Assembly: GCA_016938395.1 (NCBI GenBank)
Contig: JAFGUS010000081.1
Span: 1 to 33,290 of the forward strand
Length of the DNA stretch: 33,290 nt
Source: Coriobacteriia bacterium
GTDB taxonomy: Bacteria > Actinomycetota > Coriobacteriia > Anaerosomatales > Anaerosomataceae
Direction: 5' to 3'
Shown here in pieces: positions 19,306 through 27,737 of the stretch; position 1 is the stretch's first letter, and each line of letters opens with the position of its first letter. The notes under the pieces were generated by a model. It made no database searches, was not told the DNA's origin, and was given only the letters and a program-made list of their open reading frames with translations. Position numbers and translations under genes: made by a program.

Positions 19306-19334
19306 TTTATACCCCCTGGGGGTATTCTTGTCCA
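19306..19334 (-). promoter_or_regulatory. ccdA promoter with CsoR-type operator in its spacer
   Basis: On the minus strand TGGACA (19329-19334; 5 of 6), a 17-bp spacer, then TATAAA (19306-19311; 5 of 6). The spacer and the edge of the -10 hold the perfect palindrome ATACCCCC-T-GGGGGTAT at 19309-19325. A repressor bound there would block polymerase. The palindrome matches the two others in the window. Confidence 0.75.
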
Positions 19335-19392
19335 GCGCCCGCCGCACCGTCAAGCGGCATGCGCGCCGCCCTCGGCAATCGTGACGACCGTG

Positions 19393-19617
19393 CTACGCCT
19401 CGCCGCCCTCGACGCCGTAGCCGAGCTTGACGATCGCGGAGACGATGTCCTCTGGCGAAACCACGTCGGAATCGAAATCGACATCGACTACCTGCGTGCG
19501 GTGGTCGGCCTCCACGGCGGTGACGCCCTCAAGGTCGCCGACCTCCATCTGGATGAGCATCGAACACGACGGGCAGTGCATGCCTGTGGTCACGAACCAC
19601 TGTCTCGCGACTGCCAT
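19393..19617 (-). CDS. Heavy-metal-associated (HMA) domain protein, CopZ-like
   Basis: A 74-residue protein that is a single HMA domain. The metal-binding motif is GMHCPSCS (Cys15 and Cys18), followed by the usual ferredoxin-like pattern (LEGVTAVEADHRTQVVDVDFD, then IVSAIVKLGYGV). Such proteins carry Cu(I) or similar soft metals to P-type ATPases or other targets. GAGAGGAG precedes the ATG. It is 24 bases downstream of the zinc-ribbon membrane protein gene, with which it probably shares the sigma-54 promoter. No copper ATPase is in the window, so its partner is unknown. Confidence 0.9.
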   Translation of the reverse strand: MAVARQWFVTTGMHCPSCSMLIQMEVGDLEGVTAVEADHRTQVVDVDFDSDVVSPEDIVSAIVKLGYGVEGGEA

Positions 19618-19641
19618 CGCGACTCCTCTCAGAAGGTGTGG

Positions 19642-19995
19642 CTAATGCTTGTCGCGCCCCGGAGCCCGCATCCGATCCGTGCGCCCCGGCATGGCCCCAC
19701 AGTACGGGCACATCCGCCATTCTCCGAGTAGCTCGCGTCCGCAGGCCGAACAGGGAGCGGTGCCGCGTGTCGCCGATGCGTCGTCCCGGGAGCGCCGCTG
19801 CGAAAGCAGCACCAGCGTCGCGCCGCCGATCACCGAAGCCGCGACGAGCGGTGTGAACCACACAGACTGCTCGGCAAACCGGCACCGCTCGAGGTCGGGA
19901 TCCGCACTCAGCAGTACCGCCGTTCCCACAACGGCCGTAATCGCCGCCACGAGGGCCAGTGTTCCTATGAGGATGCGGTGGCCGTGCGTTCTCAT
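19642..19995 (-). CDS. Two-helix membrane protein with C-terminal zinc ribbon
   Basis: A 117-residue protein of unknown function. Residues 8-30 and about 46-65 are membrane helices, and the C-terminal tail holds a four-cysteine zinc ribbon, CSACGRELLGEWRMCPYCG. It ends in a basic tail. GAGG lies 6 bases before the ATG. It is the first gene downstream of a strong sigma-54 promoter, about 31 bases from the predicted transcription start, and precedes the HMA protein gene. The ribbon could bind zinc structurally or sense metal or thiol stress at the membrane; nothing in the sequence decides this. Confidence 0.75.
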   Translation of the reverse strand: MRTHGHRILIGTLALVAAITAVVGTAVLLSADPDLERCRFAEQSVWFTPLVAASVIGGATLVLLSQRRSRDDASATRGTAPCSACGRELLGEWRMCPYCGAMPGRTDRMRAPGRDKH

Positions 19996-20036
19996 TCAGG
20001 TCCTCGCCAACAAGGGACCGGGTCGGCCTGAGTGGT

Positions 20037-20052
20037 TGCAAGGCCTGTGCCA
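20037..20052 (-). promoter_or_regulatory. Sigma-54 (-24/-12) promoter
   Basis: The minus strand reads TTGGCACAGGCCTTGCA: TGGCAC (20047-20052), 5 bases, TTGCA (20037-20041), a full match to the sigma-54 consensus with the invariant GG and GC at the right distance. It starts 24 bases after the stop of the NtrC-type regulator gene and ends 41 bases before the ATG of the zinc-ribbon protein. The predicted start is near 20026. Confidence 0.8.
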
Positions 20053-20075
20053 AGGGCCTGTGCCGGGTGGGCGAC

Positions 20076-21425
20076 CTACAGACCGAACCGCTGCATCCTC
20101 GCCTCGAGCGTCTTCGTGGTCAGACCGATCAGCTTCGCGGCCTTCGGGACACTGCCGCCCGCACGATCGAGCGCCTGCCGCACGAAGTCGAGCTCGATCT
20201 CCTCGAGATCGAGGCCCGTTTCAGGAAGCACGAAGCATCGGCTGCCCGCGTCGGTGACGCTCACGCCCGCGCGCACCTCGGCGGGTAGGTCGTCGAGGCC
20301 GATCTCGTCGCCATGAGAAAGGATCACCGTGCGCTCGATGGTGTTCTCGAGCTCGCGGACGTTGCCCGGCCACTGGTAGTCGACGAGCGCCTGCATCGCC
20401 TCGGAGGAGATCGTGCGCCCCGCCGCGCCGAACTTCGTCAGGAAGTGGGCCACGAGAAGCGGGATATCCTCCGGCCTCTTGCGCAACGGCGGCATCGTGA
20501 TGGGCACCACGTTGAGGCGGTAGTAGAGATCCTCGCGGAACGTCCCGTCAGCGATGAGCTGCTGCAGGTCACGATTGGTCGCCGAGACCACACGCACGTC
20601 CACCTCGATACTCCGCGTGCCGCCCAAGCGCTCAAAGGTGCGCTCCTGGAGCACGCGCAACAGCTTGACCTGTACGGCAGGCGTGATGTCACCGATCTCG
20701 TCGAGGAAGATGGTGCCGCCGTTGGCCATCTCGAACCGTCCCGGCTTGGCGTTCATGGCCCCGGTGAACGCACCCTTTTCGTAGCCGAAGAGCTCGCTCT
20801 CGAGCAGGGTCTCGGGAAGCGCTCCTGCGCTCACTGTGACGAACGGCTTAGCGGCCCGCTCGGACAGGCGGTGTAGCGCCCGCGCCGCAAGCTCCTTGCC
20901 CGTGCCGGACTCGCCGTACAGCATGACCGTGGCGTTCGTCGGCGCCACCTTGCGGACCGATTCGAGCACGCCGAGCATCTTCGGGTCGGTCGCGACGATG
21001 CCCCCGAGGTCCCAGTCCTGGTCGATCTCCTCGCGCAGCCGCTCGACCTCCGCGGCGAGTTCGCTCGTCTTGAGGGCCTTCTCGATGACGAGCTTGAGCT
21101 CATCGAGGTCGAAGGGTTTGGTCAGATACTCGCTGGCGCCGGCCTTCATGGCCTCGACAGCGGTCTGGACGTTACCGTGAGCTGTGAGCATGATCACCGG
21201 GAACCGGTGACCTTTGGCGCGGATCCTCCGGAGGACCTCCATGCCATCGGGGGCCGGCATCTTGTGATCGAGAACGGCGATGTCGGGCTCCTGTTCGCTC
21301 ACCGCGGACAGCGCCTCCTTGCCGTCGGCGGCTTCGACGGTCTCGTAGCCCTCGGCCTCGAGTGCCTGCTTGAGCACCCAGCGCATGTTCTTCTCGTCAT
21401 CGGCGATGAGCACCGTGCGCTTCAT
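20076..21425 (-). CDS. NtrC-family sigma-54-dependent response regulator
   Basis: A 449-residue protein in the NtrC order: receiver (1-120, phosphoacceptor Asp53 in VLDHKMP, conserved Lys in YLTKPFD), AAA+ domain (about 140-380) with Walker A GESGTGKE (171-178), the sigma-54 contact loop GAFTGA (218-223), Walker B TIFLDE, the sensor region NRDLQ and the RPEDIP / [10 protein letters not shown] motifs, then a Fis-type helix-turn-helix (about 410-449). It should activate sigma-54 promoters when phosphorylated by its partner kinase. Its ATG overlaps the kinase stop as ATGA. The sigma-54 promoter 24 bases after its stop is the obvious target. Confidence 0.94.
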
Positions 21426-26735: not shown

Positions 26736-26752
26736 TCGGCCGATAGACGCCC

Positions 26753-27109
26753 TTACCGCACAGCGTCATCGACCACCGCGACCACGGTGGACTCGGCCTT
26801 GCACGAGACCGCCTCTGCTGCCGGCTCGATGACGTTCCAGAGCACCGTCGGCCGTATCGCCGTCACCCACACCGCATCCCCCTCCGCGTAGACGTGCAGC
26901 TTGCAGAGGTGCTCGTCGCCCTCGCCGATCGCAACGTCCAGGATGGTGAGCGGCTGGATAGCGAAACCCTTGGCGGCGAGTGTGGCCTGCAGATCGTGAC
27001 GCCTGACGACAGCAAAGCCGTGCAAGCGTACAGACCGCTCCACGGCTTCTACTGCGTCGGGGAAGCTGCGCGCGCACTCCCGCCTATACGTGAAATCCTC
27101 AGTAGCCAC
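26753..27109 (-). CDS. DUF302 domain protein
   Basis: A 118-residue soluble protein matching the DUF302 pattern: an N-terminal FPDAVEAVERSVRLHGFAVVRRHDLQATLAAKG, then ILDV and the second half LCKLHVYAEGDAVWVTAIRPT. The function of DUF302 is not established. The family often occurs near sulfur-handling or redox genes, which fits the thioredoxin gene in the same operon. The GTG start has only a weak ribosome site, but homology begins nearby (MATEDFTYRRE). It is the last gene of the thioredoxin-FmdB-DUF302 series, 35 bases after the FmdB-type gene. Confidence 0.8.
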   Translation of the reverse strand: MATEDFTYRRECARSFPDAVEAVERSVRLHGFAVVRRHDLQATLAAKGFAIQPLTILDVAIGEGDEHLCKLHVYAEGDAVWVTAIRPTVLWNVIEPAAEAVSCKAESTVVAVVDDAVR

Positions 27110-27144
27110 GCTACCGGTCCAGCCTCACAGGCGGCCGGCTACGC

Positions 27145-27339
27145 TCAAGAGAACCCGCCTCTCGGCGTGCACGAGCCGCTCGATGTCACAGGAGGCGCGA
27201 CGTAACCGCCGCCGACCCCCGTCGACACGTCTGATGAACCACACTCGGGGCATACCTTGTCGGCCTCCCTGAGCAGCCGCATCAAGAAGCGATCGAACTC
27301 GTGCCCGCAGTTCTTGCATCGCAGTTCGTACGTCGGCAT
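27145..27339 (-). CDS. FmdB-type zinc ribbon protein
   Basis: A 64-residue protein with the FmdB/CxxC_CxxC signature: MPTYELRCKNCGHEF (Cys8, Cys11) and VCPECGSSDV (Cys30, Cys33), followed by a glycine/serine-rich tail. These small zinc ribbons are suspected regulators, but their role is not settled. GAGG lies 6 bases before the ATG. It begins 8 bases after the thioredoxin stop, so it belongs to the thioredoxin operon. Confidence 0.9.
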   Translation of the reverse strand: MPTYELRCKNCGHEFDRFLMRLLREADKVCPECGSSDVSTGVGGGYVAPPVTSSGSCTPRGGFS

Positions 27340-27347
27340 GCCGAACC

Positions 27348-27671
27348 TCAGACCAGGCCGAACTCACGACCGAGCGCGTCGGCGCTCCGGGCACCGATCA
27401 CCTGCGTGACCAGAGTACCACGGTCGAACTTGGCAATCGTAGGGATGCTCATGATCCCGTAGCGCATGGCAACATCACGGGCCTCGTCAACGTTGACCTT
27501 GACGAACGCCACGCCGTCGCCGACCTTGCCGGCGAGCTTCTCAAGCTCAGGGCCGACCATGCGGCACGGACCGCACCACGGCGCCCAGAAGTCTACGATG
27601 ACCGGGACCGACGCATCGAGCACTTCAGCCTGGAACTCGGCCTCGCTGATCTCACGGACAGCTCCACTCAC
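27348..27671 (-). CDS. trxA: Thioredoxin
   Basis: A 107-residue single-domain thioredoxin with the active site FWAPWCGPC (Cys33, Cys36), the cis-proline in MSIPTI (Pro77) and the terminal GARSADAL. It reduces cytoplasmic disulfides and can pass electrons to CcdA, whose gene carries the same operator type. The GTG start is chosen because GGAGG lies 8 bases upstream; the longer open frame would extend through the operator. It is the first gene of an operon with the FmdB-type and DUF302 genes. The strong promoter with a perfect 20-bp palindrome suggests inducible expression rather than a housekeeping role. Confidence 0.92.
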   Translation of the reverse strand: MSGAVREISEAEFQAEVLDASVPVIVDFWAPWCGPCRMVGPELEKLAGKVGDGVAFVKVNVDEARDVAMRYGIMSIPTIAKFDRGTLVTQVIGARSADALGREFGLV

Positions 27672-27706
27672 AACGATCTCCTCCTCAGGTACGATGTACT
27701 GCGCGG

Positions 27707-27737
27707 AGTATACCCCATGGGGTATACTTGGTGTCAA
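27707..27737 (-). promoter_or_regulatory. trxA promoter with a perfect 20-bp CsoR-type palindrome
   Basis: On the minus strand TTGACA (27732-27737; consensus), a 19-bp spacer, then TATACT (27707-27712). GTATACCCCATGGGGTATAC at 27708-27727 is a perfect palindrome lying in the spacer and over part of the -10. Because of the symmetry a TATACT also faces the divergent membrane gene. The 19-bp spacer is longer than the usual 17. Confidence 0.78.

Follow-up and report, generated by a model that had tools for sequence, protein, structure and literature searches.

Putative operators of a CstR-like, three-cysteine repressor before thioredoxin and ccdA genes in the Anaerosomatales

Sulfur-responsive repressors resembling CsoR are already known, as is the control of a thioredoxin (SoxW) by one of them. 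The CstR proteins of Staphylococcus aureus, Enterococcus faecalis and Streptococcus pneumoniae belong to the DUF156 family and have both cysteines at the CsoR positions with no histidine between them; their reported regulons comprise rhodaneses and a coenzyme A (CoA)-persulfide reductase (PMC9405070, PMC5480029), and in the E. faecalis protein both cysteines are persulfidated and a link between subunits has been proposed (PMC9405070). ScCsoR (SCO0620) of Streptomyces coelicolor responds to sulfane sulfur, needs both cysteines, is autoregulated through an operator of the form ATACC-n6-GGTAT, and has as reported targets a persulfide dioxygenase, a rhodanese and TauE (PMC7533328). TTHA1953 of Thermus thermophilus, a CsoR-like thiol switch with the operator TACNNTACNNNNGTANNGTA, represses SoxW and sulfur genes distant from its own gene; its loss raises SoxW 113-fold and leaves ccdA unaffected at 1.15-fold (PMC10318464). 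YrkD of Bacillus licheniformis, a sulfane-sulfur repressor akin to S. aureus CstR, governs a single 11-gene cluster that includes sqr, pdo and a hypothetical thioredoxin, and no CcdA target appears in the available part of its report (PMC9918477). The locus described here lies on a 33,290-base contig of a Coriobacteriia bacterium of the order Anaerosomatales (GenBank assembly GCA_016938395.1, contig JAFGUS010000081.1; the whole stretch is called the window). It has three matching palindromes, in the promoters of ccdA, of a DUF156 repressor gene and of a gene run headed by trxA, and these are probably operators of that repressor, released most likely by sulfane sulfur with derepression of ccdA and the trxA run.

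An earlier note on this DNA had placed each of the three palindromes in the −35/−10 spacer of a predicted promoter, and both the sites and their placement were confirmed (Table 1). The pattern ATACCCC-N0-5-GGGGTAT occurs at these three positions and nowhere else in the window (mean of 0.00 in 100 shuffles), and the looser TACCC-N0-7-GGGTA finds the same three sites only (mean of 0.02 expected). The palindrome fills the spacer of the ccdA promoter (TGGACA-N17-TATAAA, minus strand), of the repressor-gene promoter (TTGCCG-N18-TATATT) and of the trxA promoter (TTGACA-N19-TATACT, minus strand; a spacer of 19 is long), and at all three the −10 hexamer begins with bases of the palindrome's right arm. 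Such overlap with the promoter recurs in relatives. It thus occupies the spacer and the start of the −10 box, the position where a repressor would sit. The sites have the published type-2 CsoR operator form, a TAC/GTA inverted repeat around G-tracts within a promoter, as do the site GTACCCCCTAGGGGTATA and the operator ATATACCCCTNAGGGGTATAT of the copper CsoR of Streptomyces lividans, whose copZA1 site is nearly identical to window palindrome 2 (PMC3902906). This form means that the operator alone cannot separate copper from sulfur sensing.

Scanning named genomes yielded 80 loci, of which 42 (L132–L173; record titles mostly Coriobacteriia, Actinobacteria or Anaerosomatales) hold a close repressor homologue. 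Counting strict or loose sites at Anaerosomatales loci with the gene and enough flanking sequence, a site precedes the repressor gene in 40/41 loci (39 strict; sole miss L169), trxA in 36/37 (26 strict; sole miss L139) and ccdA in 19/29 (16 strict), and none precedes the HMA-domain gene beside ccdA in 33 related loci. For comparison, a loose site is present in 689 of 20,000 random 230-base stretches of the same loci, true sites included. The arms of the site do not vary, which is in part a consequence of how the search was built, and most columns outside the promoter boxes are variable. Because the site is conserved before the repressor gene, trxA and ccdA and not before the HMA gene, the proposal of the earlier note that one CsoR-family repressor acts on all three palindromes, as putative operators of one regulon, is well supported at the level of sequence. 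The distance from TAC to GTA is fixed for each gene, at 15 bases before the repressor gene (40/40) and 14 before trxA (36/36), a one-base difference that is itself conserved.

The palindromes might instead belong to another regulator, for example a MerR-type activator, with the CsoR-family gene a mere target. A 19-base spacer around a palindrome is the layout of MerR-activated promoters, and the window trxA promoter has such a spacer around a perfect palindrome. Among trxA loci whose −35 match is at least 4, however, the best spacer is 16–18 bases in 32/33; the site stands before the repressor gene itself in nearly every locus and fits published CsoR-family operators; and there is no MerR protein among the nine window proteins scanned. 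Ownership by such a regulator is highly improbable.

Genome-wide scans covered 99 relatives, 69 genomes of the order and 30 outside it. The loose palindrome is too permissive at this scale (its reversed control matches 4–16 times per genome in 10 genomes), and our genome-wide claims therefore rest on the strict form. The strict pattern is present in 72/99 relatives, with 208 sites in the 69 genomes of the order versus 11 for the reversed control, and 63 sites in the 30 genomes outside it (46 of them in G082) versus 40 for the control (24 in G089). Sites and a close repressor homologue (E cut-off 1e-20) co-occur across the 99 genomes, sites being present in 60/64 genomes with the homologue and 12/35 without it (Fisher p = 3.9e-10). 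The nearest relative (G001) carries all three sites with identical spacings (7047 and 1354 bases) and three more, two of which lie on another contig beside a second, 90% identical repressor and a trxA gene, possibly derived from another strain within the bin. The third (C58:28476; L001, L131) lies about 150 bases before a nuoA-like gene. The regulon that the earlier note called local is not local only: relatives have further sites elsewhere in the genome. G082, which has no repressor match and does not belong to the order, has 46 strict matches; those in the two loci read (L230, L233) are 13-base cores of a longer palindrome. This dispersed palindrome (core TACCCCTGGGGTA, arms TGACAAAATT), found at 46 places in G082 and also in G074, is a different element.

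The window repressor carries Cys43, Ser68, Cys72 and Cys98. When it is aligned to GtCsoR and SpnCstR, Cys43 and Cys72 match the copper cysteines of GtCsoR, and Ser68 takes the place of its copper histidine, where SpnCstR has asparagine; the Cys-His-Cys set of copper CsoR is thus replaced by Cys43-Ser68-Cys72, and the two cysteines at CsoR positions with no histidine ligand between them agree with CstR. Thirty-six homologues, the window protein included, were aligned from the 120 listed of 826 matches; among these, Cys43, Cys72 and Cys98 are invariant (36/36), 35 have Ser and one has Ala at position 68, and the preceding residue is variable (His 25, Tyr 10, Phe 1). The C-terminal cysteine was not seen in three remote loci (L167, L170, L172). 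In a tree of 77 short proteins over 87 columns, for which a duplicate (L135) and a partial sequence (L173) were dropped from the 42 order loci, position 68 is Ser or Ala in all 40 distinct order sequences, that of L132 being identical to the window's. The repressor group is separated from copper CsoR and stands next to, though not clearly within, CstR, with the Asn-type CstR and InrS/6ahx rows as its neighbours, a placement of limited support at 87 columns.

Other features of the protein agree with the family. The RLxR DNA-contact motif described for CsoR (PMC3902906) reads RLKR in the window repressor. An AlphaFold model (mean predicted local distance difference test score, pLDDT, 77.2; predicted template-modelling score, pTM, 0.56) has helices at residues 13–38, 43–71 and 81–96, which fits the three-helix DUF156 family; pLDDT is below 50 at residues 98–100, so we make no claim on the location of Cys98. 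The residues do not fit the formaldehyde sensor FrmR, Cys72 being invariant and Ser68 standing in place of histidine: in the description of sensing positions across the CsoR/RcnR family, Salmonella FrmR has Cys35, His60 and Glu64, and no cysteine at the second-cysteine position (PMC5016687). Judged by its residues, the window protein is a CstR-like, three-cysteine DUF156 protein. It differs from the described CstR proteins in having Ser rather than Asn, an invariant Cys98, an apparent clade of its own, and thioredoxin and CcdA as conserved targets. These targets also differ from those of ScCsoR and from the single cluster of YrkD, and the G-tracts of the operators and the site before ccdA set the group apart from TTHA1953, whose operator has no long G-tracts. 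Two adjacent CsoR-family matches occur at G028:C27:19344-19901, G037:C10:8287-8835 and G040:C4:23769-24329.

The operator form would equally suit a sensor of copper or another metal, with the CDF exporter, the HMA chaperone and the thiol genes making up a metal-stress response. The CDF gene adjoins the repressor gene, divergently, in 36/42 related loci, the HMA metallochaperone gene adjoins ccdA, and in one genome (G012, C1:373222, L224) a loose site lies 29 bases ahead of where a copper-ATPase-like gene probably starts, the only link to a copper exporter that was found. Yet the histidine ligand is absent from the window protein and from all 40 order sequences of the tree, and the HMA gene has no site in any of the 33 loci. 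Copper-type ATPases score above cut-off in 64/70 genomes, yet a strict or loose site was found at 0/37 copper-ATPase-like loci examined in relatives (30 plus seven from G001, G002, G004, G005 and G015, three of the seven below cut-off; the G012 gene is outside the 37). In these respects the group departs from S. lividans CsoR, the copper sensor of copZA. The missing histidine and the copper-ATPase-like loci without sites disfavour a copper regulon, which the earlier note had called not a standard one, and a metal sensor is improbable here. That note had left the inducer between copper-driven thiol oxidation and reactive sulfur; because the histidine is missing, the copper loci lack sites and rhodaneses are among the targets in relatives, reactive sulfur is favoured over copper-driven oxidation.

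The targets in relatives were read at 66 sites taken from 33 Anaerosomatales genomes, with the majority of repressor and trxA sites left out. Gene calls came from a GC-frame heuristic, which makes the target lists approximate, and the cluster labels of the first genes beside the sites derive from one or two members scanned. Abundance of the palindromes inside coding regions, which the earlier note had named as a finding that would speak against it, was not observed: 5/66 sites lie inside a called gene (L084, L087, L104, L119, L126), four more (L071, L078, L083, L118) reach no further into a called frame than its 5′ end and are read as over-extended starts, and two (L098, L115) have no gene assigned. 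Chemoreceptor genes stand beside 13 sites in 13 genomes (L110, L086 and others), seven of them with a gene for a DUF1462 protein of ~71 amino acids opposite, and chemotaxis may be tied to the same signal. The other groups are the ~71-amino-acid DUF1462 protein (9 sites in all), ccdA (9), a protein of ~790 amino acids (7; no Pfam or NCBIfam match in L106, no NCBIfam match in L109), a rhodanese group (6, including one CoA-disulfide reductase with two rhodanese domains; G002, L069), an ACR3-like permease (6), a SufC-like protein (4; 208.3 bits, cut-off 212.8) divergent from a MutY-like protein (4), an FAD/Fe-S oxidase-like protein (3) with a HAD-like protein (3), NAD synthase (3), DUF302 (2) and an HmcB/HybA-like ferredoxin (2); the remainder are single, including NuoA-like (G001). 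Thiol and sulfur handling is the clearest theme among these targets, not the sole one. As candidate targets of the kind known from CstR, sites in relatives precede seven rhodanese-thioredoxin fusions and the one CoA-disulfide reductase; no rhodanese, persulfide or sulfide gene was seen under the sites in the window itself.

At all seven fusion loci read (L097, L099, L103, L106, L108, L109, L111), a rhodanese domain continues into a thioredoxin domain in which an in-frame TGA takes the place of the first active-site cysteine, in the context FFTDW-TGA-PSC and similar, giving an active site UxxC. Each of these fusion genes lies under the palindrome and divergent from the gene for the ~790-amino-acid protein. 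Read through the TGA, the L108 frame matches PF00581 at 7e-20 and PF00085 at 7.9e-16. A strong match (at least 65 bits) to a selenocysteine (Sec) tRNA was found in 13/15 genomes tested, and in all five tested among the seven that bear the fusion (G034 and G037 were outside the test). The fusion is, on this sequence evidence, a probable selenoprotein. Sec thioredoxins, several Sec rhodanese forms and a rhodanese/DsbD fusion have been described, and a rhodanese-thioredoxin Sec fusion is not among the forms in the available part of that paper, which is no proof of absence (PMC13188914).

In the mechanism we propose, the reduced repressor would sit on each operator, covering the spacer and the −10 box, and would block transcription of the trxA-fmdB-DUF302-like run, of ccdA, of the repressor gene itself and perhaps of the CDF gene. 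The inducer would most likely be sulfane sulfur, as persulfide or polysulfide: Cys43 would be modified and then, in the manner of CstR, joined to Cys72 on an adjacent subunit, and the DNA would be released. The derepressed thioredoxin would then reduce cytoplasmic persulfides, and CcdA, which carries reducing power outward, would pass it across the membrane. Reduction of a protein persulfide by a thioredoxin is described for S. aureus TrxA (PMC6196236).

The same repressor and operators could also serve general thiol oxidation (disulfide stress or electrophiles), sensed through a Cys43-Cys72′ disulfide, with sulfane sulfur as one of several triggers. TTHA1953 is a precedent, its DNA affinity being lost when H2O2 or Cu(II) forms the disulfide, with metals having no effect on the reduced protein (PMC10318464), and the core window targets, thioredoxin and CcdA, are a thiol-redox pair. 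The rhodanese and CoA-disulfide reductase targets in relatives nevertheless point to sulfane sulfur, and the cultured Anaerosomatales species Anaerosoma tenue makes its living from the reduction of elemental sulfur and thiosulfate to sulfide (PMC9686372); we consider general thiol oxidation rather unlikely as the signal.

Several observations weigh against release by sulfane sulfur from operators of this repressor, the reading we prefer. TTHA1953 is not released by NaHS in vitro, according to its authors (PMC10318464), and another cultured Anaerosomatales member is unable to reduce sulfur (PMC9686372). Genes other than sulfur genes make up many of the putative targets (chemoreceptors, ACR3-like permeases, NAD synthase, nuoA, MutY-like), and CoA-disulfide reductase was rejected as a general target, being found in 1/70 genomes (E 1e-120). 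The window repressor appears to fall in a clade of its own and not inside the Asn-type CstR clade, in a tree of 87 columns with long branches. The link between sites and repressor is confounded with phylogeny (within the order, 60/64 versus 3/5), ccdA lacks a site in 10/29 loci, and the −10 overlap of the core trio is rarer at other sites (20/89 gene-facing sides). The HMA domain adjoining ccdA and the loose site in G012 belong here as well.

A wider reading can be put forward tentatively, as a possibility somewhat short of even: that the Anaerosomatales share an order-wide sulfane-sulfur regulon with its own class of three-cysteine DUF156 sensor (Cys43, Cys72, Cys98), coupling thioredoxin to CcdA and, in several families, to the rhodanese-thioredoxin selenoprotein and chemoreceptors.

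Among the neighbouring genes (Table 1), the assignments of the earlier note hold for CcdA, the repressor, the CDF exporter, thioredoxin and FmdB. Its DUF302 protein is below the Pfam threshold; one-to-one BLASTP against a relative's clear DUF302 protein (PF03625, E 1.6e-16) gives 35% identity over 102 amino acids (51.2 bits), which makes a divergent DUF302 member a fair label. The case for the CDF gene as a regulon member, also claimed there, is weak: the −35 on its side of operator 2 is poor, and the site still precedes the repressor gene in five loci without a detected CDF gene (L152, L157, L167, L170, L172). The CbiX-like gene, with a homologue in 41/42 related loci, is a possible second target of operator 3, on whose CbiX-like side no good −35 was found.

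Table 1. Features of the window and of two relatives' fusion loci, with profile scores where available
Feature	Position	Strand	Evidence or remark
ccdA, DsbD_TM membrane thiol electron carrier	18538..19263	-	PF02683 E 1.5e-15
Putative operator 1 (palindrome 1)	19309..19325	.	ATACCCCCTGGGGGTAT; ccdA promoter
HMA (CopZ/MerP-like) metallochaperone domain, just upstream of ccdA	19393..19617	-	PF00403 E 8.3e-13
CDF cation exporter, divergent from repressor gene	25395..26342	-	PF01545 E 2e-39, PF16916 E 3e-22; start codon uncertain
Putative operator 2 (palindrome 2)	26356..26372	.	ATACCCCCTAGGGGTAT; repressor gene / divergent CDF gene; spacer and -10 overlap
CsoR/RcnR-family (DUF156) repressor, 100 amino acids	26433..26735	+	PF02583 E 1.6e-25, 89.7 bits, cut-off 22.8
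Divergent DUF302 protein	26753..27109	-	Pfam sub-threshold, E 0.01, 16.1 bits, cut-off 23
FmdB-type zinc ribbon protein	27145..27339	-	PF09723 E 5.3e-14; TIGR02605 above cut-off
trxA thioredoxin (WCGPC), first of the trxA-fmdB-DUF302-like run	27348..27671	-	PF00085 E 2.4e-28; TIGR01068 above cut-off
Putative operator 3 (palindrome 3)	27708..27727	.	Perfect 20-mer GTATACCCCATGGGGTATAC, enclosing ATACCCCATGGGGTAT at 27710-27725; trxA promoter; also faces divergent CbiX-like gene
CbiX-like protein, divergent from trxA	27815..29059	+	PF01903 E 4e-07, 30.7 bits, cut-off 22
Rhodanese-thioredoxin TGA fusion of a relative	L108:2551-3252		Under same palindrome, divergent from ~790-amino-acid protein
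Rhodanese-thioredoxin TGA fusion of a relative	L111:2550-3254		Under same palindrome, divergent from ~790-amino-acid protein

What is new here is the Ser-type three-cysteine group, the conserved trxA and ccdA operators, and the spread of the group across the order; no paper describing this regulon was found in the open-licence PMC literature. If true, the proposal would give an order of little-cultivated anaerobes a predicted reactive-sulfur circuit with defined DNA sites, and would add the thioredoxin/CcdA electron pathway to what CstR-type repressors control. It would also offer a clean test of how a change from His to Ser, together with an extra cysteine, might split copper from sulfur sensing while the operator is unchanged. 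Should the order-wide reading hold, a single switch would let the cell detect reactive sulfur, reduce it and steer by it.

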